64,000 nucleotides of DNA from an uncultured Flavobacteriaceae bacterium (lineage in GTDB: Bacteria > Bacteroidota > Bacteroidia > Flavobacteriales > Flavobacteriaceae): positions 124,001 to 188,000 of the forward strand of contig CANNAC010000002.1 in assembly GCA_947502495.1 (NCBI GenBank). Direction: 5' to 3'. Positions within the stretch are counted from its first letter, which is position 1. Each line of letters opens with the position of its first letter. Of this stretch, positions 30,911 through 50,342 are shown piece by piece. The notes below the pieces were generated by a model. The model made no database searches. It saw only the letters and a list, made by a program, of their open reading frames with translations, and was not told the origin of the DNA. Both the position numbers and the translations under genes were made by a program.

Positions 30911-31030
30911 ATTTGGGTGTTACCTCCTGCTGCTTTTTTAATAAGCAAAAGGAGGTCGCACTTTTCATTATATCTTTTTTTGCCATATATGGCAGCAAAA
31001 AAAGGATGCCATTGCAATTGCTAACACAAA
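30911..31030 (+). ncRNA. Structured intergenic element, copy A
   Basis: Starts 1 nt after the M20 stop with ATTTGGGTGTTACC. A first hairpin has arms ACCTCCT (30922-30928) / AGGAGGT (30950-30956). A second has arms CTTTTTTTGC (30974-30983) / GCAAAAAAAG (30995-31004). The tail is GGATGCC ... TAACACAAA. Head, second hairpin and tail match copy B (48152-48041), while first-hairpin arms differ but still pair. This suggests a selected RNA structure. It may correspond to a known Bacteroidota RNA family (Flavo-1 is one candidate), which I could not check. Confidence 0.65.
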
Positions 31031-31047
31031 GCAGACATTACTATTAA

Positions 31048-31917
31048 ATGAAGAATAGCCACTTTAAACATCTATTAGAACTTACATTAGCAACTTGCTT
31101 TATAAGTACTTCTGGTGTTTTAGGTAAATATATAGATATGCCTACCGAAATACTCATTTGGTGGCGAAGTGCTTTAGCTTTTATAATCCTTTTTGCGTAT
31201 TGCAAGTATAAAAAAATAGATCTAAAGCTTCACTCTAAAAAAGACAGGCTTCCTTTTATGCTAAGCGCCTTTTTTATGGGAGCACATTGGATTTCCTATT
31301 TCTATGCGCTCAAACTATCTAATGTAGCATTAGGCATGCTTTCCTTATATACCTTTCCGGTTATTATTGCTCTTTTAGAACCTTTATTTATAAAAATAAA
31401 ATTCGACCCAATGCATATTGTATTAGGAATACTTGTGCTTTTAGGCATTTATATTCTTGCTCCAGATTTTAATCTAGAAAACTCAAATGTAAAAGGAGTG
31501 TTTTTAGGTCTTCTTTCTGCTGTTTTTTATGCCTTACGAATTCTGATACTAAAACAACATGTAGCTAAATACAATGGTACCACATTAATGGTGTATCAGT
31601 TATTAATACTAACGGTGCTATTGGCGCCATTCTTATTTTTCAAAGATACTAGCACCATAAAAACAGAATATCCTTATGTGCTTATACTAGCTTTATTAAC
31701 CACCGCTATCGGACATACATTATTTATAAAAAAGCTACAATATTTTAGCGTGAGTACCGCCAGTATTATTAGTAGCACGCAACCCGTTTTCGGGATTATT
31801 CTAGCCTTTTTCTTCCTAAACGAAATACCTACAGCCAACACCTACATTGGCGGTTCTTTAATTATAGCCACTGTTATTATAGAGAGCATACGCTCTAAAA
31901 AGAAAAAAACGGTTTAG
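31048..31917 (+). CDS. EamA/DMT-family transporter
   Basis: 289 residues with ten hydrophobic segments in two EamA repeats (about 10-135 and 148-282). Typical phrases are SGVLGKYIDMPTEILIWWRSALAF and SSTQPVFGIILAFFFLNEIPT near the C-terminus. Inner-membrane drug/metabolite exporters of this type move amino acids or related metabolites; the substrate is unknown. Its stop codon overlaps the stop of the convergent M28 gene by 3 nt. The only upstream spacer is the structured element copy A. Confidence 0.9.
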   Translation: MKNSHFKHLLELTLATCFISTSGVLGKYIDMPTEILIWWRSALAFIILFAYCKYKKIDLKLHSKKDRLPFMLSAFFMGAHWISYFYALKLSNVALGMLSLYTFPVIIALLEPLFIKIKFDPMHIVLGILVLLGIYILAPDFNLENSNVKGVFLGLLSAVFYALRILILKQHVAKYNGTTLMVYQLLILTVLLAPFLFFKDTSTIKTEYPYVLILALLTTAIGHTLFIKKLQYFSVSTASIISSTQPVFGIILAFFFLNEIPTANTYIGGSLIIATVIIESIRSKKKKTV

Positions 31918-33287
31918 TCTTTTATTATTTTAGTGATACTGTATTTCGTATTAGAACGCGCTTTTAAAAAATAAACACCACCACTTAAAGTACTTAAATC
32001 TAATATCGTCTTCGTTCCTGAAGATGTTTTATCTAGTATCTTTTTCCCTGTGATATCGTATAATTCTAAAATTACTGCATCCGAAATAGTAGGTATATCG
32101 ACCATTAAATTCGTTTTCACCGGATTAGGATATAACAAAATTTCACTACCGCTAAACGTTTCCATTCCTAAAGAATTAACAGTAATAGGCATACTCTTTT
32201 CTACACAAGAACCAAAACTAATTTCTACGCCATAATTCCCATTAACACTAGCAGTATAGCTTTGATTTGTTGCTCCTACAATATTCATATTAGCATCATA
32301 ATTGAACCATTGATAAGCAGCTCCGTTTTGATTTGCTGTTAAAACATTTAAACTCTGACTCACGGTATTATCGATAGCTACAAGACCAGCTTTGGTAACC
32401 ATATATCCCATAATTAATTTAGAAAGCTCATGGTAATATGGAAAGTTCAAAGTACTATATCTATCATTAGAACTATGGTAAAAAGGCGTTTCGTCATTCG
32501 TTTCCCAAGACTCTCCTACCAAAACCGCAGAATAATCTTGATTCCAAAATCTAGCATGATCACTAGCAGAAGTTCCCGGATTTACCACAGTTTCTTGTAG
32601 TGTAAATCCATATGCTGGATTATTTAAAACAGAAATAATATCATCTTTCATGGCTAATGAGTTAGCAACATCTCTAACATCAATATCAAATACATTATCA
32701 TTATCCCCATCATAACCCATCATATCAATATTTAAAACGCCTAAAATATTGTCATTATTTGCAGCAGCTTGATTGGCATAATATGCAGCTCCTTGCAGAC
32801 CTATTTCCTCTTCATCCCAAAGCGCATAAACAATGGTGTTATCTAAACATTGTGTAGATAAAATTCTTGCTATCTCTAAAACAGTAGCTGTTCCAGATGC
32901 ATTGTCGTCGGCACAATAATCTGCTACCGAATCGTAATGTGCACAAATAATATAAATATTATCCGGATTTGTTTTTCCTAGCTGCGTAGCAATTATATTT
33001 CGTCTTCCAGCCTCACCATTAATCAATTGGTTACTAACCGTAATATTATCCAATCGGTCTAATTTCTGGTATAAATAATCGGCAGCTAATTCATTATTAG
33101 AATGAATTCTATTGGCTATGGTAACCGTATTTCCATTAATAATGGTAGGCTGCTCTCCAGTAAATTCTCTTAAGGTAAGTTGCAAAGAATCTAAGTCCAT
33201 TTGATGTATTACTTCTGTGATGGTTTGACCATTAACAAAAGAAGAAATAAGCAGTGTGCACAGAAGGATAAAGTAATTTTTTTTCAT
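31914..33287 (-). CDS. Secreted M28 metallopeptidase with T9SS sorting domain
   Basis: 457 residues with a signal peptide (1-21, SFVNGQ). The M28 core is at about 85-300: CAHYDS (zinc His117), ADDNASG (bridging Asp127/128), WDEEEIGL (catalytic and ligand Glu around 159-161) and a later DHARFW segment. An Ig-like linker (about 310-370) leads to a T9SS type A domain (LLYPNPVKTNL ... SITKIIKD). It is an extracellular aminopeptidase in most relatives. Its start faces the BlaI operator region (33343-33386), so it might be co-regulated with the BlaI/M56 pair. Confidence 0.9.
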   Translation of the reverse strand: MKKNYFILLCTLLISSFVNGQTITEVIHQMDLDSLQLTLREFTGEQPTIINGNTVTIANRIHSNNELAADYLYQKLDRLDNITVSNQLINGEAGRRNIIATQLGKTNPDNIYIICAHYDSVADYCADDNASGTATVLEIARILSTQCLDNTIVYALWDEEEIGLQGAAYYANQAAANNDNILGVLNIDMMGYDGDNDNVFDIDVRDVANSLAMKDDIISVLNNPAYGFTLQETVVNPGTSASDHARFWNQDYSAVLVGESWETNDETPFYHSSNDRYSTLNFPYYHELSKLIMGYMVTKAGLVAIDNTVSQSLNVLTANQNGAAYQWFNYDANMNIVGATNQSYTASVNGNYGVEISFGSCVEKSMPITVNSLGMETFSGSEILLYPNPVKTNLMVDIPTISDAVILELYDITGKKILDKTSSGTKTILDLSTLSGGVYFLKARSNTKYSITKIIKD

Positions 33288-33342
33288 AAAATAGAATGCA
33301 ATAATTTTTTGCGTAAAGGTAATGGAATTAAAAATATTTATG

Positions 33343-33358
33343 CTCTACGTTTGTAGAA
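33343..33358. promoter_or_regulatory. BlaI-type operator 1 (covers -33 element)
   Basis: CTCTACGTTTGTAGAA is an almost perfect palindrome (CTCTAC-N4-GTAGAa). Its TTTG at 33350-33353 is correctly spaced (20 nt) to act as the -33 element for the TACATTTG at 33374. Confidence 0.8.
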
Positions 33359-33370
33359 TTGAATTTTATA

Positions 33371-33386
33371 CTCTACATTTGTAGAG
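33371..33386. promoter_or_regulatory. BlaI-type operator 2 overlapping -7 element
   Basis: CTCTACATTTGTAGAG is a perfect palindrome. Its core TACATTTGTA fits the BlaI/MecI consensus TACAnnTGTA. It also contains TACATTTG, an exact match to the Bacteroidota -7 element TAnnTTTG, 33 nt before the chosen BlaI start. A third half-site (TGTAGAG) lies just before the ATG. Confidence 0.85.
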
Positions 33387-33406
33387 AACAATCTAAACAT
33401 GTAGAG

Positions 33407-33772
33407 ATGCAATTATCCAAAACAGAAGAAGATTTAATGAATCATATCTGGAGATTACAAAAGGCTTTTATGAAAGATTTACTAGAAGCATATCCAGAAC
33501 CTAAACCAGCCAATACAACGGTTGCGACACTTTTAAAACGTATGACAGACAAAGGCTTTATCGCGTACACTCTTTTTGGTAATTCACGTGAATATTATCC
33601 TTTAGTAAAGAAAAAAGATTATTTCTCTAAACATGTAAACGGATTAATAAAGAACTTTTTTAACGATAGCAGTTCGCAATTTGCTTCCTTTTTCACTAAA
33701 GAAACCAATCTATCTAAAAAAGAATTAGAAGATTTAAGAAGCATTATAGATCAAGAAATAAAAAACAAATAG
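33407..33772 (+). CDS. BlaI/MecI-family repressor (pair 1)
   Basis: 121 residues from the ATG at 33407. The longer frame from 33359 would translate through the operator and promoter, so it is rejected. The winged-helix core is MQLSKTEEDLMNHIWRLQKAFMKDLLEAY ... NTTVATLLKRMTDKGFIAY, and the C-terminal helices fit BlaI dimerisation. BlaI-type repressors are removed by cleavage or inactivated through a membrane M56 peptidase, and such a gene lies 2 nt downstream. The palindromes over its own promoter indicate autoregulation. Confidence 0.92.
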   Translation: MQLSKTEEDLMNHIWRLQKAFMKDLLEAYPEPKPANTTVATLLKRMTDKGFIAYTLFGNSREYYPLVKKKDYFSKHVNGLIKNFFNDSSSQFASFFTKETNLSKKELEDLRSIIDQEIKNK

Positions 33773-33774
33773 TC

Positions 33775-35688
33775 ATGGAAATCGTACTATTAAAATCCAG
33801 TATATGTTTGCTTGCTTTTATTGCTTTCTATAAAGTATTTTTAGAAAGAACAAGTAACCATCAATTTAAGCGTATTTACTTATTAGGTGTTGTCTTGGTT
33901 TCTATTACCATTCCTTTTATAACTTTTATAGAATATATAGAGCCTCAAAAGGCATTAACCAATATTTCTGAAGTAACAGGTTTTTCTGAAAATCAAAACC
34001 CAATAACAAAAGAGCCAACAAACTATTTACCAATAATATTATGGAGTATTTACGGATTAGGAGTCCTATTATTTTTAATACGATTTGTGTACAACCTATC
34101 GCAAATAGCCTTAAAAATAAGGAGAAATCCGAAGCAAAAAACAAACGATTTTATCCGTGTCTTATTGAAAGATTTAATAATACCACACACCTTTTTTAAT
34201 TACATTTTTTTCAATAAAACCAAATATGAAAATAACGAAATACCAAAAGAAGTTTTACTTCATGAGCAAACACACGCCAAACAAAAACACAGTTTAGACA
34301 TACTGTTTATAGAGGTCTTACAAATAATATTTTGGTTTCACCCTTTAGTCTATATATTAAAGAAAGACATCAAACTAAACCATGAATTTTTAGCAGACCA
34401 AGCAGTTATTAACAAAGGCATAGAAAGCACTAATTATCAAAAAATCTTGCTATCGTTCTCATCAAACCAGCAAGCATTAACCTTAGAACACGCAATCAAT
34501 TATTCATCCATCAAAAAACGATTTACAGTTATGAAAACACAAACATCCAAACAGACTTTTTGGCTTCGTAGTTTATTACTACTGCCATTATTAGCAATCT
34601 TAATTTTCAGCTTTAGCACTAAAAAACAGGTAGAGAAAGAAGCCGAAACAAAATCACAAATATCCAACGAAGCAATTAATAATTCAGAAGACTTAGAAAT
34701 ACGAATTACTAAAGACCTTAAGATTTTTATAAACGACAGACCTACATCTTTAGAAAATTTACAAAACACGCTTCATGAGTTCCATAATCATTTAACTTTT
34801 AATGAAAAGCAAAAGCTAGTTCTCGTTGAAATTAAATTGGAAGATAATATTGAAATGGGATTTTTTACCGATGTAAAAGAACAACTGAGAGCTTCCGGGT
34901 ATTTAAAACTAAATATCACACCTAGAAACTATACAACCCAAAAGCAAGATAAAGCAACACCTAAACAACTTGCAGAATACAACAAACTTGCAAAAAAATA
35001 CAACAATCAACCAGAAGACAAAAGATTTATCGAACGTAAAGAGGTCGAAAAATTAGAATATATATATAGTTTAATGACTGAAAAGCAAAAGACGGAAGCA
35101 GAACCTTTTCCAAACTTTCCTTCTCCACCTCCAGCACCGAAAGTAAAAAAAGGAGAAGTAAGTAACATTCCACCTCCACCACCTCCAATTCCAGGTGATG
35201 CAACGGAAGAAGAAAGAGCAGAATACGAGAGAATTCATGAAGAGTACCATCAGAAATACGAGATTAAAAATGGTCATGTTTCTGAAAGAATGATTCCACC
35301 ACCTCCACCACCAAAGTCTCCATTAGATCACGTAGTCGAAATGGCGAAAAAAGATGCTAATTTTTATTTTGAAGGGAAGAAAATCACATCCGATAAAGCC
35401 ATTGAAATAATAAAAAGCGATAACGATTTAAGTATTTCTACGCAAACAAAAGGATTAAAAAAACCCTTGGTAAACATCACTACACATCCTGTGATTACCG
35501 ACGATAAAGGAAAAGTAATTACTAAAGTAGAAACATTGGAAGAAATTAAATCTAATGTTGAAAAAGACAAACATGGTTATCTATATATAAATGGTGACAC
35601 CTTTTTCTATACTATTAAAAATAAGCAAATAACCTATTTTAATAGATACGGAAAAAAAGTAAATGAAAAAGGAGAACTACTAAATTAG
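33775..35688 (+). CDS. M56 (BlaR1-like) membrane metallopeptidase (pair 1)
   Basis: 637 residues. The N-terminal half has membrane segments near 5-20, 34-53, 86-105, 175-195 and about 265-282. The gluzincin motif LLHEQTH (His163-Glu164-x2-His167) and LNHEFLADQ (Glu204) form the zinc site. The extracytoplasmic part lacks a penicillin-binding domain. Instead it has polar, lysine-rich sequence with proline runs (PPPPPPIPGD, PPPPPPKSPL) and a C-terminal beta region with YLYINGDTFFY. It likely senses an envelope signal and relieves repression by BlaI. The ligand is unknown; the missing PBP sensor argues against beta-lactam sensing. Confidence 0.88.
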   Translation: MEIVLLKSSICLLAFIAFYKVFLERTSNHQFKRIYLLGVVLVSITIPFITFIEYIEPQKALTNISEVTGFSENQNPITKEPTNYLPIILWSIYGLGVLLFLIRFVYNLSQIALKIRRNPKQKTNDFIRVLLKDLIIPHTFFNYIFFNKTKYENNEIPKEVLLHEQTHAKQKHSLDILFIEVLQIIFWFHPLVYILKKDIKLNHEFLADQAVINKGIESTNYQKILLSFSSNQQALTLEHAINYSSIKKRFTVMKTQTSKQTFWLRSLLLLPLLAILIFSFSTKKQVEKEAETKSQISNEAINNSEDLEIRITKDLKIFINDRPTSLENLQNTLHEFHNHLTFNEKQKLVLVEIKLEDNIEMGFFTDVKEQLRASGYLKLNITPRNYTTQKQDKATPKQLAEYNKLAKKYNNQPEDKRFIERKEVEKLEYIYSLMTEKQKTEAEPFPNFPSPPPAPKVKKGEVSNIPPPPPPIPGDATEEERAEYERIHEEYHQKYEIKNGHVSERMIPPPPPPKSPLDHVVEMAKKDANFYFEGKKITSDKAIEIIKSDNDLSISTQTKGLKKPLVNITTHPVITDDKGKVITKVETLEEIKSNVEKDKHGYLYINGDTFFYTIKNKQITYFNRYGKKVNEKGELLN

Positions 35689-35710
35689 ACTTTAAATAGA
35701 TATAATCTCT

Positions 35711-35752
35711 AAAGACCTTTCTAGTGTAAAAAGCTAGAAAGGTCTTTTTTTT
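35711..35752 (+). terminator. Intrinsic terminator of the BlaI/M56 pair 1 operon
   Basis: AAAGACCTTTCTAG (35711-35724) / CTAGAAAGGTCTTT (35734-35747): 14-bp perfect stem, 9-nt loop, then a T-run. Confidence 0.92.
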
Positions 35753-35822
35753 GGTTAAAAAGTGTAACAAAAAGGCCCTTTCGGCGTTCTAATAGTCTAA
35801 TCATCAATCAAAATCAATCCTC

Positions 35823-36923
35823 ATGTTAAAACAATTTTTTATTATCTGCTCTGGCGCAGATACCAACATTCTCAAAGATTGCTCTAATGGAGAGCAAAAC
35901 AAATACGCAGGAATTGGAGCTACTGTTTTCTTTACTGCAATCATGGCATTTATAGCTTCTAGTTATGCGCTTTTTACGGTTTTCGATAATCTATATACAG
36001 CCATCTTTTTTGGCTTAATCTGGGGATTACTCATTTTTAATTTAGATCGTTTTATTGTTTCTACCATAAAGAAAAGGGATCGTTTTATGGATGAATTTAT
36101 TCAAGCTTCCCCAAGAATTGTATTGGCATTAATTATCGCTATTGTAATCTCTAAACCTTTAGAATTAAAGATTTTTGAAAAGGAAATTAATCAAGTACTT
36201 TTAGAACAAAAAAACGAACTTACGCTAGCAAACAAAGACCAAATCGCTTTACAGTTCACACCAGAAATTCAAGCTTTAGAAAACAATATTACAGTACTAC
36301 AAACAGAAATAGACACCAAAGAAGAAGCAGTAAATGCCTTATATGCTATTTTTATTAACGAAGCCGAAGGAACTGCTGGAACCAAACTCTTAGGTAAAGG
36401 TCCAGTGTACAAAGAAAAGCGAGATAAACACGATGCTGCTTTAGCAGAATTACAAGAATTAAAAACCAACAACAAAGAAAAAATCACAGCTACTGAAACG
36501 CAAATAATTCAGCTTAAAACAAATTATGATACGCAAGTGGCAACTTCACAACCCATTATTGAAGGATTTGATGGTTTAATGGCTAGAGTAAATGCATTAA
36601 ATCAATTGCCTTGGCTACCAAGTCTATTCATATTCTTATTATTTTTAGCCATTGAAACTTCGCCTATTATCGCAAAATTACTATCACCAAAAGGAGAATA
36701 CGACTTTAAGTTTGAAAACGAAGAACATAAAATTAGAACTTGGACCACACAACAAGTGCATCAAGAAAAAAAGATGCTGGATGCAGATAACGCCATAAAC
36801 GATAAAGTGTATAAAGACATTGCAGAAGAGGAAGAACTTTATGCTTACAAAAAGAAAATCGCTCGAGAGCTTATGAAAAAGCAACAGGATGCTTTTTATG
36901 CCAAACAAACCAAGATATTATAA
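35823..36923 (+). CDS. DUF4407 membrane protein
   Basis: 366 residues. It begins FFIICSGADTNILKDC, typical of DUF4407. Membrane segments lie at about 35-52, 56-75 and 93-110. A long coiled-coil region (about 120-235, rich in Lys/Glu/Gln) is followed by a fourth segment at about 260-280 (LPSLFIFLLFLAIETSPIIAKL) and a charged cytoplasmic tail. The biochemical role of this family is not known. It stands between two terminated units, so it is likely transcribed alone. Confidence 0.88.
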   Translation: MLKQFFIICSGADTNILKDCSNGEQNKYAGIGATVFFTAIMAFIASSYALFTVFDNLYTAIFFGLIWGLLIFNLDRFIVSTIKKRDRFMDEFIQASPRIVLALIIAIVISKPLELKIFEKEINQVLLEQKNELTLANKDQIALQFTPEIQALENNITVLQTEIDTKEEAVNALYAIFINEAEGTAGTKLLGKGPVYKEKRDKHDAALAELQELKTNNKEKITATETQIIQLKTNYDTQVATSQPIIEGFDGLMARVNALNQLPWLPSLFIFLLFLAIETSPIIAKLLSPKGEYDFKFENEEHKIRTWTTQQVHQEKKMLDADNAINDKVYKDIAEEEELYAYKKKIARELMKKQQDAFYAKQTKIL

Positions 36924-37028
36924 AACGGCAAACACCAACTAGTACTATATTAACCATAATGAATAGGATTTTATTCGATTGACGATTACATAGTGATTAA
37001 AGTTTAAGATTTCATTACTTTTAAAGTT

Positions 37029-37988
37029 ATGAAAAACATACTACAAATCGATGGGGATTTCATGGAACAAAACACTGTTTTTACAGAATTGATTCAAGAA
37101 ATAAAACAATGCTTTTCCAATAAAAGCATTATGGTACCCATGCGTCACCATCATGATTTCCCAAATCCTGCAGTGAACAAAGACGCGACGCTTTTACTAA
37201 TGCCTGCGTGGAATCCAGATAAAAATGCTGGAGTTAAAATAGTTACTGTACATCCAGAAAACGGACAATTTAATTTACCTGCCATTCAAGGAATCTATAT
37301 TTATTTAGATGCTGTTAAAGGAAATATTAAGGCCATATTAGAAGCTAAAAGCTTAACCGCTAAACGCACAGCAGCAGCTTCGGCTTTGGCATCCGTTTAC
37401 TTATCTAAACTAAACTCTAGTAGTATGCTCATGATTGGAACAGGCGCTTTATCTGCGAACCTAATTCAAGCACATGCTTCTGTAAGACCTATAAAAACAG
37501 TGTATATTTGGGGAAGAAATTACGAGAAAGCGAAAGCGATTGCTTCCAGCTTAAAAAATGAAAATTTTACCGTTCAAGTAATTCCAACTATCGAAGAAAA
37601 AATAGGAGATGTAGATATTATTTCCTGTGCTACACTTTCTAAAACACCATTAATTTTAGGCGCATATTTAAAAAAAGGACAACATATTGATTTAGTTGGC
37701 GCTTATAAAGTAGACATGCGGGAAGCGGATGATGATACCATAAAAAAAGCTTCCGTTTACGTAGATACTTTTCAAGGTGGATTAAAAGAAAGCGGTGATA
37801 TTGTTATTCCTCTTAAAAATGGAAGCCTTAAAGAGGAAGACATAAAAGGCGATTTATTCAGCCTAACTTCTAATCCAACAAAAGGCAGACAGAACGATAA
37901 TGAAATCACAGTTTTTAAATCTGTTGGCCACGCTATAGAGGATTTAGCAGCTGCTAATTATTACTATAATAAATTCACAAATGCATAA
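37029..37988 (+). CDS. Ornithine cyclodeaminase/mu-crystallin family; probable delta1-pyrroline-2-carboxylate reductase
   Basis: 319 residues with the Rossmann motif MLMIGTGALSANLIQAHASVRP (about 136-157), family residues KAIL-EAKSLTAKRTAAASALAS, and DLVGAYKVDMREAD in place of the usual GAD/DxPRE segment. Related enzymes make proline from ornithine or reduce delta1-pyrroline-2-carboxylate. The stop overlaps the start of the trans-3-hydroxyproline dehydratase gene by 8 nt. That enzyme produces delta1-pyrroline-2-carboxylate, so the reductase role, yielding L-proline, is strongly favoured. Cytoplasmic, NAD(P)H-dependent. Confidence 0.88.
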   Translation: MKNILQIDGDFMEQNTVFTELIQEIKQCFSNKSIMVPMRHHHDFPNPAVNKDATLLLMPAWNPDKNAGVKIVTVHPENGQFNLPAIQGIYIYLDAVKGNIKAILEAKSLTAKRTAAASALASVYLSKLNSSSMLMIGTGALSANLIQAHASVRPIKTVYIWGRNYEKAKAIASSLKNENFTVQVIPTIEEKIGDVDIISCATLSKTPLILGAYLKKGQHIDLVGAYKVDMREADDDTIKKASVYVDTFQGGLKESGDIVIPLKNGSLKEEDIKGDLFSLTSNPTKGRQNDNEITVFKSVGHAIEDLAAANYYYNKFTNA

Positions 37989-39048: not shown

Positions 39049-39059
39049 CACTTTAAACT

Positions 39060-39491: not shown

Positions 39492-39520
39492 TTTTCTAAA
39501 AACTAAAAAAAAAAACTCAC

Positions 39521-40846: not shown

Positions 40847-40885
40847 GGCAGCAAATTATTATCGAATAATCTTCTTCCATTTTCT

Positions 40886-42106: not shown

Positions 42107-43394
42107 TATTCATTAAAGCTTCAATGTCTTCTATTTCAATTGGCATTGCTTCCGTTAAATTGATATTTCCATTTTCTGTAATTACATAATCGTTTTCTAA
42201 TCTGCAACCAATCCCTTCTTCTGGAATATAAATTCCTGGTTCGCAAGTAAGTACCATTCCTATTTCTAAAGGACGCGAATACAAGCCAACATCATGAACA
42301 TCTAATCCAATATGATGCGCAGTACCATGCATGAAATACTTTTTATACAATGGCTTTTCCGGATCCTGATTTGCAACTGCATCTGCATCTAACAATCCTA
42401 GTTTTATCAATTCTGCTTCTACTAAACTTGCCATTTGAGACTCGTAATCTGCAGGAAGTATCCCTGGTTTTAAAAGCTTACTTCCTTCTTTTAAACAATG
42501 TAAAACCGCGCTATACACTTCTTTTTGTCTTTTACTGAATTTTCCATTTACAGGAAAACATCTGGTAGTATCACTATTATAATTTGCATAGCAAACGCCA
42601 AAATCCATAAGCACCATTTCACCATCTTTACAAACAGCATCGTTAGTATTATAATGCAATGCACATGCATTTTTACCAGAAGCAACAATAGGTTTAAAGG
42701 CATGTCTTACCGCTCCAGACTTCACTAAATTATAGATTAGCTCTGCTTCTAACTCGTATTCGTTTATATTTGGTTTACACGATTCTAAAACACGTTTAAA
42801 ACTAACCACACTAATATCTGCAGCTTTTTGCATTTGGGCAATTTCTACTTCCGATTTTATTGGACGCAGATCTCTAGTTATTTTTGCTGCTCTATGCAAT
42901 GGATGTAAAGGGTATTTCTTTTTACACCATTGTATCATTCTATCTTGCTGCGTTTCTTGATCTTTTGTGGCACGCTTTAAATATTCATTGTGCCCAAGGT
43001 AAAAACCGTCGGCTTCAAAAGCCATATATTGCAAAAGCATTTCGAAGTCATGTACCCATTCTACTCTAGAAATTCCAGAAATATCTGTTGCTTGTTCTTT
43101 GGTTAGTTTCTCACCATCCCAAATTTTCATTTGTTCATTGGTTTCTTTGACAAACAAAATAGCCTTGTTCTCCTTTTTATGTGCATCTGGATATAAAACC
43201 AGAATAGTTTCCTCTTGGTCTATTCCCGAGAAATAAAACAAATCATTATTTTGCGTAAAACCCATAACATCATCTGCATTATTATGCTTCACATCATTGG
43301 ATGTTAGGATAGCTATTGTATTTGGTTCCATTTTAGAAATAAATTGATTTCTATTTTTTTGGAATAAGGTATTCGGAAGTGGTTGGTATCTCAT
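42096..43394 (-). CDS. M24-family Xaa-Pro aminopeptidase (PepP-like)
   Basis: 432 residues with an aminopeptidase-P N-terminal domain (RYQPLPNTLFQKNRNQF ... LFYFSGIDQEETILVLYP). The M24 catalytic domain has VLMDFGVCYANYNSDTTRCFP (two Asp), MHGTAHHIGLDVHD (His), LTCEPGIYIPEEGIG (Glu) and CRLENDYVIT (Glu). It removes N-terminal residues before proline. It sits 1 nt after the D-amino-acid dehydrogenase gene and overlaps the next M24 gene. Having two different M24 enzymes in a hydroxyproline operon suits degradation of collagen-like peptides. Confidence 0.92.
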   Translation of the reverse strand: MRYQPLPNTLFQKNRNQFISKMEPNTIAILTSNDVKHNNADDVMGFTQNNDLFYFSGIDQEETILVLYPDAHKKENKAILFVKETNEQMKIWDGEKLTKEQATDISGISRVEWVHDFEMLLQYMAFEADGFYLGHNEYLKRATKDQETQQDRMIQWCKKKYPLHPLHRAAKITRDLRPIKSEVEIAQMQKAADISVVSFKRVLESCKPNINEYELEAELIYNLVKSGAVRHAFKPIVASGKNACALHYNTNDAVCKDGEMVLMDFGVCYANYNSDTTRCFPVNGKFSKRQKEVYSAVLHCLKEGSKLLKPGILPADYESQMASLVEAELIKLGLLDADAVANQDPEKPLYKKYFMHGTAHHIGLDVHDVGLYSRPLEIGMVLTCEPGIYIPEEGIGCRLENDYVITENGNINLTEAMPIEIEDIEALMNNEK

Positions 43395-43395
43395 A

Positions 43396-44643
43396 TTAAA
43401 ATTTCCTGTCTGGATGAAAAGGATGTAAATTTAATGAAGTTTTTCTATCTGAAATAATTTCGGAAACTAATTTTCCTGTCGCTGTAGCCATACTCCAACC
43501 CATCATAGCGTGTCCTGTCGCTATAGATAAATTATCGCATTTTGACGACTTCCCTATATACGGCAATCCATCTGGTGATACTGGTCGTAAGCCAGAAGCT
43601 GCGTCGTTTTTTTCTTCTTCCGTTAGCTTCAATTCTGGATAAAAACGAGTAGTCGCATTTGCAATAGCATCTACACGAACTTTGTTTATGGTATCATTTA
43701 TTCCTGCAATTTCCATAGTACCTGCAAAACGTGTAAAACCATGCATTGGTGTTACAGCAACTTTTGCTTCTGCTAAAATGGAAGGTATTGTAATTCCTGT
43801 TTGTTGTGTTGTATTTATTCGATAGCCTTTTCCTGCTTGCAGTAATAATTTAACCCCTAATTTCTTGCTCAAAATAGGACTCCAAGAACCTGCTGCCAAA
43901 ACAAATTCATCTGCTTTTAATATTTGTTTATTTGTTTTTACTTCAGAAATTCGCCCGTTTAAAACGTTTACATCTTCTACTTTTTCATTGGCACAAAAGG
44001 TAACACCTACCTTTTTTAAATGCGCTTTCATTTCTTCCATAAATTCCTGTGGCGTTGTATGTGAATCGCAGGAATAATAGGCTGCTCCTTTTACATTCCA
44101 ATTTACATTTGGTTCCATTTTTTTAAGCTCTGCCATAGACAATTCCCTTGCGTCTAAACCTTCCTTTTTTGCTAAATGAGCTGCTTTAATTTCCTCTTCC
44201 AGCATCGCTTCTGTTTGACACAACATGAGTAATCCTTTCTTTTCATAATGGAAGGTAAAGTTTTCATCCCGCTTAATAGCATCATACAAATCCTGACTAA
44301 ATAGCGTAATTCCTTTTATCGCTGGAATTGCTTTTTTAACATGATTCGCGCTGCATGATTTATTAAAAGCCAAAGTCCATTTTAAAAAATCGGCATTTAA
44401 TCGCGGTTTAATATACAACGGACTAGAAGAATCCAACATCCATTTCAGTCCTTTCTTCATAACTCCAGGTGCCGAAAGTGGCACAATATGACTAGGAGAT
44501 AAATAGCCAGCATTGACATAAGACGCACCAGAATCTAGATTCGATTGATCTATTATCGTTATTTGAAAACCTTCTTTTTGAAGATAATACGCAGAACATA
44601 AGCCTATAATTCCGCCACCAATTATTACTACACTTTTTGACAT
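43396..44643 (-). CDS. FAD-dependent D-amino-acid (cis-4-hydroxy-D-proline) dehydrogenase
   Basis: 415 residues, DAO/DadA family. The N-terminal FAD motif is VVIIGGGIIGLCSAYYLQKEGFQITIID (5-32), and the C-terminal signature is ATGHAMMGWSMATATGKLVSEI. It probably oxidises cis-4-hydroxy-D-proline, the epimerase product, to delta1-pyrroline-4-hydroxy-2-carboxylate and passes electrons to a respiratory acceptor. This substrate is inferred from the operon with an epimerase, a DHDPS-family deaminase and a semialdehyde dehydrogenase. By sequence alone it could be a general D-amino-acid dehydrogenase. Confidence 0.88.
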   Translation of the reverse strand: MSKSVVIIGGGIIGLCSAYYLQKEGFQITIIDQSNLDSGASYVNAGYLSPSHIVPLSAPGVMKKGLKWMLDSSSPLYIKPRLNADFLKWTLAFNKSCSANHVKKAIPAIKGITLFSQDLYDAIKRDENFTFHYEKKGLLMLCQTEAMLEEEIKAAHLAKKEGLDARELSMAELKKMEPNVNWNVKGAAYYSCDSHTTPQEFMEEMKAHLKKVGVTFCANEKVEDVNVLNGRISEVKTNKQILKADEFVLAAGSWSPILSKKLGVKLLLQAGKGYRINTTQQTGITIPSILAEAKVAVTPMHGFTRFAGTMEIAGINDTINKVRVDAIANATTRFYPELKLTEEEKNDAASGLRPVSPDGLPYIGKSSKCDNLSIATGHAMMGWSMATATGKLVSEIISDRKTSLNLHPFHPDRKF

Positions 44644-44656
44644 TTGCTACCTTATT

Positions 44657-44926
44657 TTAAGCTTCTTTATTTTTAATTTTGTCTACAGTAATCACTCTAA
44701 AAGTATTGCTATTTATGGTGATTCCTATCTGATGTTGGGTATTTGAAATATAGAAGTTCTTCCCTCTTTTTTTATAGTGTTCTAGACCGGTTTCTTGCAA
44801 CACCTTTTTTAGAAGTATTTCACTTTCCTCCTTTGAAAAACGGGTACCCAACTTCTTATTTATTCTTTGATACACCAGTTCTGTATAACAATGCTTTTCT
44901 AAAATTTCGTTTTTATTTATTTCCAT
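44657..44926 (-). CDS. Small DUF3781-like protein
   Basis: 89 residues, no signal or membrane segment. The sequence NEILEKHCYTELVYQRINKKLGTRFSKEES and the C-terminal NFYISNTQHQIGITINSNTFRVITVDKI resemble what I recall of the DUF3781 family. The function is unknown. It is tightly placed (13 nt) before the D-amino-acid dehydrogenase gene and 65 nt after the epimerase gene, so it is co-expressed with the hydroxyproline operon. It may be incidental cargo. Confidence 0.7.
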   Translation of the reverse strand: MEINKNEILEKHCYTELVYQRINKKLGTRFSKEESEILLKKVLQETGLEHYKKRGKNFYISNTQHQIGITINSNTFRVITVDKIKNKEA

Positions 44927-44991
44927 TTCTTTAAATACATTTCAAAGGGTCTTCTTTTAATAGGCCTTCTAGCTTTAAAAGTATAAAAAAC

Positions 44992-45999
44992 TTAAATCAC
45001 TTGAAATCCTAATGCATAAGGATCATCTGCAGCATCAATCGTAATGGTGTTATGGCCAAATACTTTTGCCCAACCTTGAATACTTGGTATTATGGCTTTA
45101 TTACCATTTAAAAGCGTTTCGGCTTCCACGCGTCCTATAAATTTACTTCCTATAAAACTTTCGTGTACAAATTCTTCTCCTATTTTTAATTTTCCTTTTG
45201 CATAAAGCTGCGCTAATCTTGCTGAGGTTCCTGTTCCGCAAGGACTTCTATCTATCGCTTTATCTCCATAAAAAACAGCATTTCTCCCAGATGAAGTTAC
45301 ATCAATTGGATTTCCTGTCCAAAGCATATGAGTTACATTTTTAATCGTTTCATTTTCTGGATGCATAAATTGATTGGGATATTTCTCTTGGATTCTATCT
45401 CTAACTATTTGCGAATATTGAATGATTTTGGAAGCTGTAAAATCCTGTACTCCAGAAAAGTTTTTCTGCGGATCTACAATAGCATAATAGTTTCCACCAT
45501 ACGCAACATCAAAAATAATCTCGCCTAATTCTGGGCATTCCACAGTTAAATCCTGCGCCGCTAAATAACTTTTTACATTGGTAAGCTTTACCCAATCTAC
45601 TTTGTTATTGGTTTGTTGGTATTCGATTTCTACTAAACCTGCAGGAGCTTCCATTTTAATTTTCCCTGGAATTTTAGGTATCACTAAACCTTCTTCAATA
45701 GCAATAGTAATCGTTCCGATGGTTCCATGGCCGCACATTGGTAAGCAACCAGAAGTTTCTATAAACAGAATAGCGAAATCATTTTCAGGATTATGCGGCG
45801 GAAACAAAAGGCTTCCGCTCATCATATCATGACCACGAGGTTCAAACATTAAGCCTTTACGAATCCAATCGTATTCTTTTAAAAAATGTTGGCGTTTCTC
45901 ACTCATGGAATTACCAATTAAATTTGGGCCACCACTTTTTATAACGCGTACTGGATTTCCGCAAGTATGTGCATCAATACAAACAAATGTCTTTTTCAT
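44992..45999 (-). CDS. 4-hydroxyproline 2-epimerase (proline racemase family)
   Basis: 335 residues with proline racemase fold and both catalytic cysteines: Cys89 in LPMCGHGT and Cys254 in DRSPCGTGTSA. The Cys/Cys pair marks an epimerase or racemase rather than a dehydratase. In this context it converts trans-4-hydroxy-L-proline to cis-4-hydroxy-D-proline, the first step of bacterial 4-hydroxyproline catabolism. Its paralogue at 37981 has Cys/Thr instead. Proline racemase activity is the alternative, but neighbours support hydroxyproline. Confidence 0.92.
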   Translation of the reverse strand: MKKTFVCIDAHTCGNPVRVIKSGGPNLIGNSMSEKRQHFLKEYDWIRKGLMFEPRGHDMMSGSLLFPPHNPENDFAILFIETSGCLPMCGHGTIGTITIAIEEGLVIPKIPGKIKMEAPAGLVEIEYQQTNNKVDWVKLTNVKSYLAAQDLTVECPELGEIIFDVAYGGNYYAIVDPQKNFSGVQDFTASKIIQYSQIVRDRIQEKYPNQFMHPENETIKNVTHMLWTGNPIDVTSSGRNAVFYGDKAIDRSPCGTGTSARLAQLYAKGKLKIGEEFVHESFIGSKFIGRVEAETLLNGNKAIIPSIQGWAKVFGHNTITIDAADDPYALGFQVI

Positions 46000-46067
46000 A
46001 ATTTCTTATAACATTTCCCGAATCTTTCTCAAGCAAGGCGTTTTAAAAAAGCTTCTGAAGGGAAAAT

Positions 46068-47651
46068 TTAGATTCCGGATTTGGTTTGCTTATTATTTAT
46101 TAATCTAGAAATCTGCAACGGATTCTCGTTTTTTAGTTCGTTTGGCAATAATGAATTGGGCCAATCTTGATAACTAAAAGGGCGCACCCAACGTTTTATA
46201 GCATGTATACCAACTGCTGTAAATCGACTATCGGTTGACGATGGATATGGTCCGCCATGCACCATCGAAGGACAAACCTCAACTCCTGTTGGCACACCAT
46301 TAAAAATAACTCGTCCAACGCGATTTTGTAATGCTGCAATGACTTTAGAATACTTAGAAGCCTCACCAGCATCTGCGATTAAAGTTCCTGTTAATTGTCC
46401 TTCTAATTTTGAAATTATCGTTTCTAATTCTTCTGCATTTTCACATTGTACAACGATGGAATACGGCCCAAAAACTTCTTGATGTAAGGTTGAGTTTTCC
46501 AAAAACGTTTTACCAGAAACTGTTGCAACCGTTTGTTTTGCATAATTGGTTTTCACGGCGGATTCATAATTCGCTGTAACCGTTATTTCAGGCTGCGAAA
46601 TTGCTTTTTGTTTATTGCTTTCATACGCTGAAATAATGTTTGGATGTAACATTACCGCTGGTTCTATTTTCAGGATTTCATTGGATAAATTCTGAATGAA
46701 ATTGGATAAATTTTCGCCTTTAATAGCTAGTAGTAAACCCGGATTTGTGCAAAACTGTCCTGTTCCTAAAGTAATAGAACCTGCATAGGTTTTTGCTAGA
46801 TCTTTTTGTCTGTTTTTTAATGCTTCCGGAAGAATTATTACTGGATTGACACTTCCCATTTCAGCGAATACAGGAATTGGTTCTTCGCGTTGTGCTGCTA
46901 TGTCGTATAAGGCACGTCCGCCACGAATACTACCAGTAAAACCAACTGCTTTTACACCCGGATGTTTTACTAGTTGTTGTCCAACTTCGATTCCGCTAGA
47001 ATTTAAATTAGAAAAAACGCCATTAGGCATTCCTATTTTTTCTGCGGCTTTTAGAATTGCAGAAGCCACTAATTCTCCGGTTCCTGCGTGCATTGGATGC
47101 GATTTTACAAGTACTGGACAACCAGCTGCAAATGCGGCTGCAGTATCGCCACCAGCAGTGGAGTATGCTAACGGAAAATTACTTGCACCAAAAACTACTA
47201 CCGGTCCTAAAGGCACTAACATTTTACGAATATCAGATCTTGGCATTGGTTGGCGTTCTGGCTGCGCAGTATCTATTGCCGCTTCTACCCAAGAACCTTC
47301 TTTTACCAAGTCTGCAAAACTACGCAACTGGCCAACGGTTCTACCGCGTTCTCCTTTTGCTCGACCTTCTGGCAAACCGGTTTCGGAGCAATAGGTTTGA
47401 ATTAATACGTCATCTAAGGCTAAAATTTCATCAGCAATGGCATTTAAAAATGTCGCTTTTTTTTCTCCTGAAGTATTTCTGAAAGTTTTAAAAGCATAGG
47501 ATGCTAAAGTTACTGCTTCGTCAATTTCTTCTGGAGTTGCTTCTGTAAAAACAGGTGTGTTTTCCACATTTAATTGCGGATTAAATGTTCGGTATGTTTT
47601 GTCTCCAGATGCAGATTGCTTGTTTCCTATGTAGTTTTTTCCTGTTATCAT
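46068..47651 (-). CDS. 2-oxoglutarate semialdehyde (2,5-dioxovalerate) dehydrogenase
   Basis: 527 residues, aldehyde dehydrogenase superfamily. It has NAD(P)-binding segments (GPVVVFGASNFPLAYSTAGGD, VKAVGFTGSIRGG), catalytic Glu in PVFAEMGSVNPVIILP and catalytic Cys in LGTGQFCTNPGLL. The length and QFCTNPG motif suit the ketoglutarate-semialdehyde dehydrogenase group. It would oxidise the semialdehyde made by the DHDPS-family deaminase (48157) to 2-oxoglutarate for the TCA cycle. An antisense 182-codon open frame within it is a coding shadow. Confidence 0.92.
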   Translation of the reverse strand: MITGKNYIGNKQSASGDKTYRTFNPQLNVENTPVFTEATPEEIDEAVTLASYAFKTFRNTSGEKKATFLNAIADEILALDDVLIQTYCSETGLPEGRAKGERGRTVGQLRSFADLVKEGSWVEAAIDTAQPERQPMPRSDIRKMLVPLGPVVVFGASNFPLAYSTAGGDTAAAFAAGCPVLVKSHPMHAGTGELVASAILKAAEKIGMPNGVFSNLNSSGIEVGQQLVKHPGVKAVGFTGSIRGGRALYDIAAQREEPIPVFAEMGSVNPVIILPEALKNRQKDLAKTYAGSITLGTGQFCTNPGLLLAIKGENLSNFIQNLSNEILKIEPAVMLHPNIISAYESNKQKAISQPEITVTANYESAVKTNYAKQTVATVSGKTFLENSTLHQEVFGPYSIVVQCENAEELETIISKLEGQLTGTLIADAGEASKYSKVIAALQNRVGRVIFNGVPTGVEVCPSMVHGGPYPSSTDSRFTAVGIHAIKRWVRPFSYQDWPNSLLPNELKNENPLQISRLINNKQTKSGI

Positions 47652-47736
47652 GGCATTTATGTCTTTTTGATGTGTACGAAGAGAATCGCTTTGCTTTATA
47701 TGATAAAGAACACATCTATACTTTAGATATATTCTT

Positions 47737-48000
47737 TTAGTTATGGATTCGTTTTAAATGTGCTTCTACATCTACTGGTTGGTGTACTATTTTGGTAGAT
47801 GCTGGATATTTTTTTAATAATGCTTCTGGTCGTATTGGTCGTTTTTCAAAGCCGCCACCACAATTCGGACAAACCTGTTCTAAAATAGTATCTACGCAGT
47901 CTTTACAGAAGGTACACTCGAAGGTACATATCATTGCATCTTGTGCATCGAATGGTAATTTTTTATTACAATTCTCACAGGTTGGTCTTATTTCTAGCAT
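47737..48000 (-). CDS. DUF1272 zinc-ribbon-like small protein
   Basis: 87 residues of the DUF1272 family: MLEIRPTCENCNKKLPFDAQDAMICTFECTFCKDC ... CPNCGGGFEKRPIRP. Paired Cys-x2-Cys motifs (starting near residues 8, 29 and 48) suggest two zinc sites. The function of the family is unknown. It lies in the hydroxyproline operon between the deaminase and the aldehyde dehydrogenase gene, separated from the former by structured element copy B. Confidence 0.88.
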   Translation of the reverse strand: MLEIRPTCENCNKKLPFDAQDAMICTFECTFCKDCVDTILEQVCPNCGGGFEKRPIRPEALLKKYPASTKIVHQPVDVEAHLKRIHN

Positions 48001-48040
48001 TATTTTATGTTTGTTAATTCTATTATTTGGTGTTCTGTAT

Positions 48041-48152
48041 TTGTGTTAAGGATTGCAGCGGCATCCTTTTTTTGCTTCTATATAAGGCAAAAAAAAATAC
48101 AGCGTAAAGCCTGACCAAACGTAGCTTAAGCGAAGTTTGGGAACACCCAAAT
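48041..48152 (-). ncRNA. Structured intergenic element, copy B
   Basis: Read on the minus strand it begins ATTTGGGTGTTCCC 4 nt after the stop of the DHDPS-family gene. A first hairpin CCAAAC/GTTTGG (48115-48120 with 48135-48140) follows. Then come GTCAGGCTTTACGCTGTA, a U-run/A-run hairpin ending GCAAAAAAAGGATGCC, and the tail CTTAACACAAA. Head and tail match copy A almost exactly; stem bases differ while pairing is kept. Confidence 0.65.
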
Positions 48153-48156
48153 CACT

Positions 48157-49074
48157 TTACAAATTTTTATAATCTGGCAATATTGGCCTGCTTTTTAGCG
48201 CATCTTCAATTACTTTTAATACCTGTATCCGTTCTTCACCATGTAGCGGTAATCTTGGTGCTCTAACATTTTCTGTACCTATTCCGGTTGCTACCTCGGC
48301 GAGCTTAATATTTTGCACTAATTTGGGATTTATATCCAACTCTAATAATGGCATAAACCAACGGTATATTTCAATTGCTTCTTGAATTCTTCCTACTTTT
48401 TGAAGTTGATAAATAGCAACCGTTTCGGCTGGAAATGCGCATACCAAACCGGCAATTATTCCATCGGCTCCCATTAACAAACTTTCTAAGGATATGGTGT
48501 CTACGCCAGACATGATTTTTAAACGATTACCAAAGCGATTTTTGATTCTTGTCACGTTAGAAACATCTCTGGTCGATTCTTTTACAGCTTCAATATTTGG
48601 GCAGTTTGCCAATAGTTCTTCGAACATATCTAGCGTTACTTCAATTTTATAATCTACTGGATTATTGTAAATCATTATAGGAAGTTTTGTGCTATTTGCA
48701 ATTGCTTTAAAGTATTCTACAACTTCTCTATCTCCCGCATTATAACGCATTGGTGGCAAAAGCATCAAACCTTGCGCACCATCTTCTTCTGCTTTTTTAG
48801 CACATTGAATCGCGTCTTTTGTAGTCTGCTCTGCAATATTTATTAGCACTGGAATTTTACCATTAACAAACGCTATGGTTTCTCTGGTTAGGATTCTTTT
48901 TTCATTATCTGTTAATGTACTGGCTTCGCCCAAAGTACCACCAAGTACAATTCCATGTACACCTGCATCTAGTTGTGCCTGAATATTAACTTTAAATGTT
49001 TTAAGATCTAACGTATCGTTTTCTGTAAACTTTGTCGTTACTGCTGGCATCACGCCTTCCCATTTTATACTCAT
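48157..49074 (-). CDS. DHDPS-family delta1-pyrroline-4-hydroxy-2-carboxylate deaminase
   Basis: 305 residues, DapA/NAL superfamily TIM barrel. Family motifs are GIVLGGTLGEASTLTDNEK (41-59), IMIYNNP with Tyr136, and Schiff-base Lys165 in EAVKESTRD. In hydroxyproline operons this member deaminates and dehydrates delta1-pyrroline-4-hydroxy-2-carboxylate to 2-oxoglutarate semialdehyde. The epimerase, dehydrogenase and semialdehyde dehydrogenase genes downstream support that over dihydrodipicolinate synthase. First gene of the leftward operon, divergent from the AraC-type regulator. Confidence 0.9.
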   Translation of the reverse strand: MSIKWEGVMPAVTTKFTENDTLDLKTFKVNIQAQLDAGVHGIVLGGTLGEASTLTDNEKRILTRETIAFVNGKIPVLINIAEQTTKDAIQCAKKAEEDGAQGLMLLPPMRYNAGDREVVEYFKAIANSTKLPIMIYNNPVDYKIEVTLDMFEELLANCPNIEAVKESTRDVSNVTRIKNRFGNRLKIMSGVDTISLESLLMGADGIIAGLVCAFPAETVAIYQLQKVGRIQEAIEIYRWFMPLLELDINPKLVQNIKLAEVATGIGTENVRAPRLPLHGEERIQVLKVIEDALKSRPILPDYKNL

Positions 49075-49213
49075 AATTTCTACGTTTTAAAGTGGTAAAA
49101 CTAATAGAATACTCTTGTATTTAATGATAAGGTTTTATCCATAATTAATACTATATTATTCAATTTGTAAACATTAAATTTATAAAAGAATAGTATTTGC
49201 GTATATTTGAAGT
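49075..49213. promoter_or_regulatory. Divergent promoter region of hydroxyproline operon and AraC gene
   Basis: 139-nt A/T-rich region between the deaminase (minus) and AraC-type (plus) starts. Two related stretches, AGAATACTCTTGTATTT and AGAATAGTATTTGCGTAT, are possible direct-repeat sites for the AraC-type regulator. This is a weak match by eye. Confidence 0.4.
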
Positions 49214-50056
49214 ATGAAAGTACTACCATTTAAAATACCTAAACCGGAGCAAGATGCTTTAATTTTTCAAATAGATGCGGCGGAATCTTTTTATGATAAG
49301 TTGCACCAACACGAAGAAATTCAGTTAAGTTTTATCGTGGAAGGAGAAGGAACTCTTGTGGTAGGAGATACTGTAAATGATTATGCGAAGGAAGACATTT
49401 TAATTATAGGAAGTAATATTCCACATGTTTTTAAGAGCGACTCGAAGACTTGTGAAAAATCGCATATGCTATCTCTCTTTTTTACGAAGCAGTCGTTTGG
49501 CGCTCATTTTTTTGAGCTAGAAGAATTAAAAGAGCTCCAACTTTTTTTTAAACTCGCAAAGCATGGTTTTAAGATTACCTCTAAACAACAGGAAATAAAG
49601 ACCTTGTTTTTACAACTAGAAAAGGCATCTAAACTCCATCGTTTTTATGTATTACTGAAGCTTCTAGAAATAACATCGAAGGCGAATTACAAAAGCTTAT
49701 CTTCTTTTATTTATGATAAAAAATACAGTGATAATGAAGGTTATAGAATGCGTAATGTTTTTGAATACACGATGAATAACTTTAATAAAGAGGTTACTTT
49801 AAGTTCTATTTCGGAAGTAGCGAATATGACTAAAAATGCCTTTTGTAAGTATTTTAAAAAGAGAACGAATAAAACCTATTTTCAGTTTTTAAATGAACTA
49901 CGCATTGAGCATGCTAGTAAGCTTTTGCTATCGGAAAACAATTATCCTACTACAGAAATAGCAGAACTTTCGGGTTTTAATAATATTTCGAATTTTAATA
50001 GACAGTTTAAAGCGATAAAAGGAAAAAGTCCGTCACAATGGAAGAAAACAAAATAG
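49214..50056 (+). CDS. AraC-family transcriptional regulator
   Basis: 280 residues. The N-terminal cupin effector domain (FYDKLHQHEEIQLSFIVEGEGTLVVGD ... DILIIGSNIPHVFKSD) is followed by a C-terminal double helix-turn-helix (VTLSSISEVANMTKNAFCKYFKKRTNKTYFQFLNELRIEHASKLL ... TTEIAELSGFNNISNFNRQFKAIKGKSP). It is divergent from the hydroxyproline operon and is its most likely activator, responding to hydroxyproline or an intermediate. A short hairpin with T-run follows it. Confidence 0.92.
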   Translation: MKVLPFKIPKPEQDALIFQIDAAESFYDKLHQHEEIQLSFIVEGEGTLVVGDTVNDYAKEDILIIGSNIPHVFKSDSKTCEKSHMLSLFFTKQSFGAHFFELEELKELQLFFKLAKHGFKITSKQQEIKTLFLQLEKASKLHRFYVLLKLLEITSKANYKSLSSFIYDKKYSDNEGYRMRNVFEYTMNNFNKEVTLSSISEVANMTKNAFCKYFKKRTNKTYFQFLNELRIEHASKLLLSENNYPTTEIAELSGFNNISNFNRQFKAIKGKSPSQWKKTK

Positions 50057-50104
50057 GTTTTTGGGGATTTCTAAAAGATGAAACATCTCTGAGGTTTAAT
50101 CTAT

Positions 50105-50127
50105 AAAGCAGCACGCCGCTTTTTTTT
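50105..50127 (+). terminator. Probable terminator of the AraC-type gene
   Basis: AAAGC (50105-50109) / GCTTT (50118-50122) around an 8-nt loop, followed by TTTTT. The stem is short, so the call is moderate. Confidence 0.5.
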
Positions 50128-50240
50128 GATGGACGTCGTTTTTTCAAGAATAGAACTGGTCTATCTATGGATAATCTCAACCTTTTTCACCTTCGTTTTA
50201 GTCTTTTGTACTACAAGCACGAAAGGTATCGAGAACTCAT

Positions 50241-50340
50241 AAAAAAACTACCTATCGGCAAGTATACTGGATAGCCTGACGTTTTGTAATCCTTCAAGAT
50301 TTTTTTTGACCTTGCAGGATTACAAAAGCTAACGCCCTAT
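50241..50340 (-). ncRNA. Structured intergenic element, copy C (diverged)
   Basis: Read on the minus strand it begins ATAGGGCGTTAGC 2 nt after the PhnA-like stop. A first hairpin TTTTGTAATCCT/AGGATTACAAAA (50282-50293 with 50316-50327) has 12-bp perfect arms. CGTCAGGCTATCCAGTATA then matches the core of copy B (GTCAGGCTTTACGCTGTA). A weak stem and TTTTTTT end it; the GGATGCC/TAACACAAA tail is not evident. The convergent gap 50057-50342 holds nothing else recognisable. Confidence 0.5.
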
Positions 50341-50342
50341 TA

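Follow-up and report, generated by a model that had tools for sequence, protein, structure and literature searches.

Three copies of a structured element (A, B and C) stand directly behind the stop codons of unrelated genes in the window, a stretch of 64,000 nucleotides (nt) from an uncultured Flavobacteriaceae bacterium (assembly GCA_947502495.1, contig CANNAC010000002.1, positions 124,001 to 188,000 of the forward strand), and they raise the question of what this element is and whether it is recognised as RNA or as DNA. Pairing in its core and in its hairpin 1, the strand that folds, its modular build, differences in the inner module between species and a preference for stop codons were all observed. 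The explanation favoured here, with a confidence that stays just below even, is that A, B and, as a decayed member, C belong to a modular, non-autonomous dispersed repeat, which is recognised as one folded strand, likelier of DNA than of RNA. On this view the element is probably no independent small RNA gene, and it is not an ordinary terminator.

Copy A occupies positions 30911–31030, with its head (GGGTGTT) at 30915–30921 and its tail (TAACAC) ending at 31027, and copy B positions 48041–48152, with the head at 48148–48142 and the tail TAACAC ending at 48043. As a sequence-only reading of the window had described, the copies start 1, 4 and 2 nt past the stops of genes for a peptidase M20, a DHDPS-family protein and a PhnA-domain protein, respectively; its account of a common head, core, U-run/A-run hairpin and tail holds as well. 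Measured up to the head's first G, the gaps are 5, 8 and 5 nt in A, B and C. The same reading had named Flavo-1 as a candidate family, and a scan against Rfam (cmscan) bore this out at a level far above chance: the inner parts of A (30950–31029, minus strand; 55.6 bits, E-value 2.3e-9) and B (48041–48120, plus strand; 58.7 bits, E-value 3.2e-10) match Flavo-1 (RF01705) over the full length of the model and above its gathering score of 42. The folding strand, which is discussed below, is the minus strand for A and the plus strand for B and C. Copy C (50241–50340) retains the head, hairpin 1 and the start of the core, its 3' half is gone, and it gave no Rfam match in cmscan. At the orthologous PhnA locus, full elements could be found in four related genomes (G001, G002, G004 and G005), with nested inserts within those of G001 and G004; the element of G003 is decayed like C and G006 is without one. 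Given these full elements, C is a decayed copy.

The element is dispersed, which had also been guessed from the three copies. In the source genome of the window (G000; other G-numbers denote further genomes that were compared), 39 Flavo-1 matches exceed the cut-off; the number rises to 45 when E-values up to 0.001 are admitted and to 51 with a limit of 10, and 50 of these 51 were read. The genome thus has about 50 copies overall. Among 14 control genomes, 10 had matches at E ≤ 10, none of them over the cut-off, and none had a match at E ≤ 0.001. Further copies were found in related genomes: 26 of the 40 genomes searched, the source genome included, had matches (0 to 45 copies each), as had 74 of 246 genomes in a wider draw within the order, for which at most 18 candidates were scored per genome.

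The anatomy was read from 130 copies in eight genomes, with the ends of the element set by motif expressions. Roughly 90–200 nt in size, the element opens with a head (GGGCGTTA and variants) and closes with a tail (TAACGC), which is able to pair with the head; between them lie, in this order, hairpin 1, the 5' core, hairpin 2 and the 3' core. Head and tail are short inverted repeats. The Rfam model spans the two cores and hairpin 2 only. Hairpin 1 is variable in sequence and length, and in the window its arms are ACCTCCT/AGGAGGT in A (30922–30956, minus strand, largely outside the Rfam model), CCAAAC/GTTTGG in B (48115–48141, plus strand) and TTTTGTAATCCT/AGGATTACAAAA in C (50282–50327, plus strand). 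In hairpin 2, a T-run and an A-run flank a variable tip, and the T-run lies in the 5' arm on both strands, so that the earlier statement that the element is not a simple terminator could be upheld.

A second frame (type I; TTTAGGAGCT...GGGGCTA), which resembles the Rfam consensus, has a small hairpin 1 or none; copies with an unrecognised head were also assigned to type I, so that figures given for it are mixed. A different inner module, type III (TCGCTC...GAGGAGCTC), can fill either frame, and its pattern matched 3–12 times per genome in the seven genomes of the source genus. Matches occurred in 9 of 31 genomes, that in G017 being coding sequence rather than an element; as a control, the pattern was reversed and then gave one match overall. 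The tip of this module (loci L206–L235 except L213) is conserved and mostly TCTCTGCGAG. A scan of one type III copy with Rfam brought no family up to its gathering score, and the best E-value in that scan, 0.0053 for Chlorobi-1 (19.9 bits vs 50), belonged to a site just outside the element.

Other palindromes were seen inside some elements. One of them (CCTGCCTGCCGGCAGGCAGG type) has entered the element at several different points, TATA and TCTTTT being its frequent neighbours on the two sides, and the outer parts are retained (L056, L059, L064, L065, L078, L217, L221 and L232). The tips of hairpin 2 often carry other interspersed palindromes (TTCTCGATAC...CACTCGAACTGACA; GTCATTACGA...GGTAATCT), for example in L018, L029, L037, L050, L052 and L260, as if the tip were a hot spot for insertion.

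Six core pairs (x1, x2, x3, N, p and q) could be read in 122 of the 130 copies, the other 8 being unparsable; the parser chose the better-pairing of the possible 5' registers, and 114 of the 122 parsed copies had one register only. Over 83 distinct loci, Watson-Crick pairs were counted at 79 (x1), 78 (x2), 78 (N), 82 (p) and 77 (q), compared with shuffle means of 28–44 for these five pairs, and none of 5000 shuffles was as high as observed; x3 is almost invariant. Mutual information amounted to 0.75–1.33 for the true pairs vs 0.01–0.08 for four shifted pairings. The compensatory change proposed in the sequence-only reading is thus supported by strong covariation in five of the six core pairs and by the two-sided changes between orthologues that are described below. 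Hairpin 1, on whose differing bases the proposal had been built, does pair in each copy, but part of the difference reflects exchange of whole hairpins and not base-by-base compensation alone. Compensation by itself does not establish a function at the RNA level, since it also arises when single-stranded DNA must fold.

The fold had been assigned to the strand of the upstream gene (hereafter the reader's strand), and this assignment has to be reversed: both Rfam matches lie on the opposite strand, and the asymmetry of mismatches and the internal loops agree with Rfam. Core mismatches on the reader's strand of the 122 parsed copies included 14 of the A.C class vs 1 of the G.T class. The 14 A.C cells are spread over 13 distinct loci and, counted per locus, the numbers are 11 vs 1; the A.C cell of L056, beside an inserted palindrome, and the sole G.T (L144) look like register artefacts. 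Hairpin 1, which has a readable stem at 38 of 57 loci, gave 7 A.C vs 0 G.T on the reader's strand; its register was chosen as the best among 12 offsets, a choice biased towards pairing. In 20 copies taken from G204 and G176 the numbers were 2 vs 0. The raw total is 23 A.C vs 1 G.T (sign test ∼3e-6, assuming independence). As A.C on one strand reads G.U or G.T on the other, it is concluded that the folding strand is that of Rfam. An RNA within the 3' untranslated region (UTR) of the sense strand was rejected on account of the mismatch asymmetry. Conserved internal loops that read TnC/TnC on the reader's strand are GnA/GnA on the Rfam strand, and sheared G.A pairs are known from this motif. Of 732 core cells, no more than 14 are wobble cells. 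For type III, a rough pair parsing of 29 of the 30 matches resulted in 92 Watson-Crick cells out of 116, with 7 A.C, 1 G.T and 16 other mismatches. Folding energies of the single copies A and B failed to separate the strands, with RNA and DNA parameters alike; the RNA folding z-scores were -3.9 on the Rfam strand vs -4.2 on the reader's strand for A, and -2.5 vs -1.6 for B.

By the similarity of their flanks, the 130 copies represent 90 distinct loci, 24 of which hold copies from more than one genome. The orthologue count excludes L144 as well as L138, whose grouping was judged to be due to a chance similarity of its flank. Out of 354 base-pair cells in orthologous comparisons, 309 were unchanged, 27 had two-sided changes that are still Watson-Crick, 16 one-sided changes and 2 other changes, and the unpaired loop centres were altered in 43 of 118; these comparisons were made pairwise within loci and are hence non-independent, and the changes at L042 resemble exchange of a whole core. 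Copy A itself has a compensated pair difference from its orthologue in G002. When 208 kb were aligned with G001 and G004, the frames were common and the inner parts differed. At the locus of copy A, G001 and G004 have an unrelated stretch of ∼85 nt in place of the hairpin 2 tip. At C2:78226, G000 has a Flavo module and G004 type III, at C2:98914 type III is present in G000 and the Flavo module in G001, and at C2:202433 hairpin 1 of G000 is unlike that of G001. Identical tips could also be observed at unrelated loci within one genome, most strikingly in G204. In the vicinity of phoH and aroC, the element is kept in some genera and decayed in others, and in several genomes the next gene comes directly after phoH; this survey provides examples and not rates, as the wrong frame was used in reading at least 10 of the 30 loci at aroC and some at phoH (that of G000 included). 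Four similar copies in G036 (L121–L124) were considered as a case of element movement and rejected, their longer shared flanks reflecting duplication of a larger unit.

To describe placement, open reading frames of at least 70 amino acids were taken as genes, and the null for stop codons was drawn from 208 kb of the source genome only. A total of 62 loci were classed as type II, 44 from G000 and the remainder from five other genomes; 2 of the 62 are without a recognisable tail, leaving 60, and one of these two (L142) is really a type I copy. At 25 of the 60 distinct type II loci the head lies at most 11 nt from a same-strand stop codon, where about 3 would be expected: a uniform intergenic point is so placed in 4.5% of cases, and in 9.6% given a same-strand gene upstream. 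Seven type II tails lie at most 12 nt from an opposite-strand stop. The type I class showed a weaker preference (5 of 19 loci with a same-strand gene upstream), and in G028 and G036 type I often comes after a terminator-like T-run. The start directly after stop codons, as noticed for the three copies, is therefore a strong preference and not a rule. The neighbours of the 60 type II loci run in the same direction in 29 cases, in reverse in 15, convergently in 10 and divergently in 3, and 3 are without a gene call on the tail side. Together, stop adjacency and orientation counts indicate that the folding strand is most often antisense to the gene that it follows. A full promoter of the flavobacterial type, judged by the consensus generally known for it, precedes the folding strand at 1 of the 60 type II loci, and a -7 box alone occurs 4 times vs 3 on the control side. 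Terminator-like sites were present within 70 nt after the tail at 5 of these 60 loci and before the head at 4.

Flavo-1 elements were also seen at contig ends directly upstream of apparent promoter regions of what we take to be two ribosomal RNA (rRNA) operons (L053, ∼1510–1685; L055, ∼1455–1630). Recent transposition was considered for this pair and rejected, as both lie upstream of apparent rRNA operons and their similarity reaches beyond the element.

In the window, copy A abuts the stop of the peptidase M20 gene (29491–30909, plus strand) and almost fills the intergenic gap to a gene for an EamA transporter (31048–31917, plus strand). Copy B abuts the stop of the DHDPS-family gene (48157–49074, minus strand) and is followed by a DUF1272 gene (47737–48000, minus strand), and C abuts the stop of the PhnA-domain gene (50343–50921, minus strand). 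DUF1272 and copy B stand amid genes resembling a hydroxyproline operon (proline racemase, aldehyde dehydrogenase, DHDPS and an AraC-type regulator; window 43396–50921). In G001, G002 and G004, DUF1272, a single element and the PhnA gene are adjacent (G001:C1:794520-795632), and in the alignment with G001 and G004 the operon genes are missing at this place, which is what recombination between B and C as direct repeats would leave.

For the favoured reading, a dispersed repeat recognised as one folded strand, the following course is proposed. The Rfam strand, usually antisense to the preceding gene, would fold such that the head pairs with the tail, with hairpin 1 on one side and, on the other side, a rod of short covarying helices between GnA/GnA loops, capped by the variable hairpin 2. 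An enzyme or a recombination process may recognise this folded single strand, and copies would sit in the safe space behind genes and stay intact by exchanging or converting each other's modules. In the transcriptome of Flavobacterium psychrophilum, Flavo-1 hits are sense or antisense to transcripts indistinctly and many are untranscribed, according to the accessible part of the report (PMC9723704). The lean to DNA is based on the lack of a strand rule in this transcriptome, on a folding strand that is antisense and without a promoter in the largest class of loci, and on the small number of wobble cells. More tentatively still, Flavo-1 might not be a small RNA family but an inner module that can be swapped for several others within bacterial interspersed elements of a new class; such elements would dock just behind stop codons, be selected as a folded single strand and persist by homing-like exchange of modules at fixed addresses.

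Several points weigh against this reading. Wobble confined to one strand is equally expected for RNA, and point-by-point compensation at old loci exceeds the need of a selfish element unless conversion is frequent. Many loci are old and common to several species, which fits a host function too. Neither the orthologous comparisons nor the phoH and aroC loci revealed an exact empty site with a target duplication, and the searches for RVT_1 and Y1_Tnp identified no mobilising enzyme. A replication-strand bias is absent, with 22 vs 19 copies in G001 and 8 vs 4 in G020 (origin taken at dnaA), unlike in IS200/IS605 elements. RVT_1 is also not wholly unlinked: among the 14 genomes tested, Flavo-1 is present in each of the five with a match (G000, G006, G023, G028 and G036), and RVT_1 gave no match in the four that lack Flavo-1, so that there may be a weak link between the two. 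RVT_1 gave no match in G001, G002, G004, G005 and G020, all of which carry copies, and on account of these five genomes a reverse transcriptase was rejected as a required mover.

The alternative that survives best, although it is regarded as rather unlikely, is a cis-acting or antisense RNA. Transcription of the Rfam strand would then head for the 3' end of the gene upstream, or would produce the 3' UTR of a convergent gene; the fold would stabilise, process or end transcripts. Strand-specific tolerance of wobble is typical of RNA, as are GnA/GnA internal loops, the Rfam strand has folding z-scores of -3.9 (A) and -2.5 (B), divergent neighbours occur at 3 of the 60 type II loci only, and old loci are retained with compensation; this compensated change at old loci is the strongest point for RNA. 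However, at 29 of the 60 loci the folding strand is antisense with both neighbours running the opposite way, a promoter was found at a single one of them, the F. psychrophilum transcripts are without a consistent strand in the accessible text (PMC9723704), and the reader's strand of A folds equally well (z-score -4.2; -1.6 for B).

Less probable again is a double-stranded DNA site behind genes, resembling a bacterial interspersed mosaic element (BIME), which would serve the host as a cruciform or protein-binding insulator and be currently immobile. The element indeed stands behind genes in both orientations (29 to 15 in tandem, 10 convergent) and upstream of the two apparent rRNA operons, and loci are common across genera. 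A cruciform should not, however, give a mismatch asymmetry of 23 to 1 between the strands, copy number is very uneven among relatives (0 to 45), and the element is absent or decayed at the phoH and aroC loci in some genera.

An element of the repetitive extragenic palindrome (REP) or IS200/IS605 type, moved by a Y1 (HUH) transposase, is improbable. Such an element would likewise be palindromic, extragenic, folded as a single strand and placed near stop codons, and a gene of the Y1_Tnp family, resembling a REP-associated tyrosine transposase (RAYT), is present in G000 (L073; G000:C9:19818-23054). The repeated palindromes that ring this gene are its own (CACGGATTTGCAATCCGTG type) and make up a distinct REP-like family. 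Y1_Tnp gave no match in eight relatives with 9–45 copies each (G001, G002, G005, G006, G009, G011, G023 and G025), and together with the different palindromes around the G000 gene this led to rejection of the Y1 transposase as mover; the absence of a replication-strand bias also speaks against it. The most improbable alternative is an attC-like site belonging to an unrecognised integron system. The arrangement behind stop codons, with the folded strand antisense to the gene and a variable terminal hairpin, is that generally known for attC, but the outer boxes (GTTA left, TAAC right) stand in the reverse order and the copies are scattered singly.

Flavo-1 was first described in 2010 (PMC2864571). 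In the accessible text of the open-licence papers naming it (PMC2864571, PMC9723704 and the review PMC9029176) no function is given for it, and among the matches listed for palindromic or dispersed flavobacterial repeats in the open-licence literature no title describes an element of this type. The finding that Flavo-1 forms the interior of a larger modular repeat, with its strand and placement, fits the failure of the transcriptome to assign it a role. A vague RNA family is thereby turned into testable questions, namely whether it acts as RNA or DNA and what exchanges its modules. Covariation by itself, moreover, is no proof of an RNA gene.

Compared with the Flavo-1 RNA of Rfam (RF01705), copies A and B match the full model and the folding strand is the same as concluded here, but the full element adds head/tail pairing, hairpin 1 and a second inner module. 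Rfam lists Flavo-1 as 'Gene; sRNA', whereas no sign of an independent RNA gene was seen here, with promoter-like sequence at 1 of 60 loci. With attC sites of integrons the element shares a folded strand that is antisense to the preceding gene and a variable terminal structure. The R boxes of attC are RYYYAAC...GTTRRRY, in that order, whereas the order here is GTTA...TAAC, and copies are single, with no cassette arrays in the stretches read. Like the REP/BIME sequences associated with RAYT, the element is extragenic, folded and often touches the ends of open reading frames (PMC3733652). As far as the accessible part of that paper describes them, REPs are palindromes of 20–40 bp, mostly tagged GTAG or CGTC (PMC3733652), while the element here is ∼90–200 nt in size and three-part, has different ends and is without a link to a Y1 transposase. 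The BOX elements of Streptococcus pneumoniae, according to the text available to us (PMC3049150), are likewise interspersed between genes and modular; a given folded module may be there or missing within the frame, and current movement is slow. They belong to another phylum and are likened by description, not by sequence; boxB varies there in copy number, whereas hairpins are exchanged here, and, unlike BOX, the present element favours a start a few bases past a stop codon.

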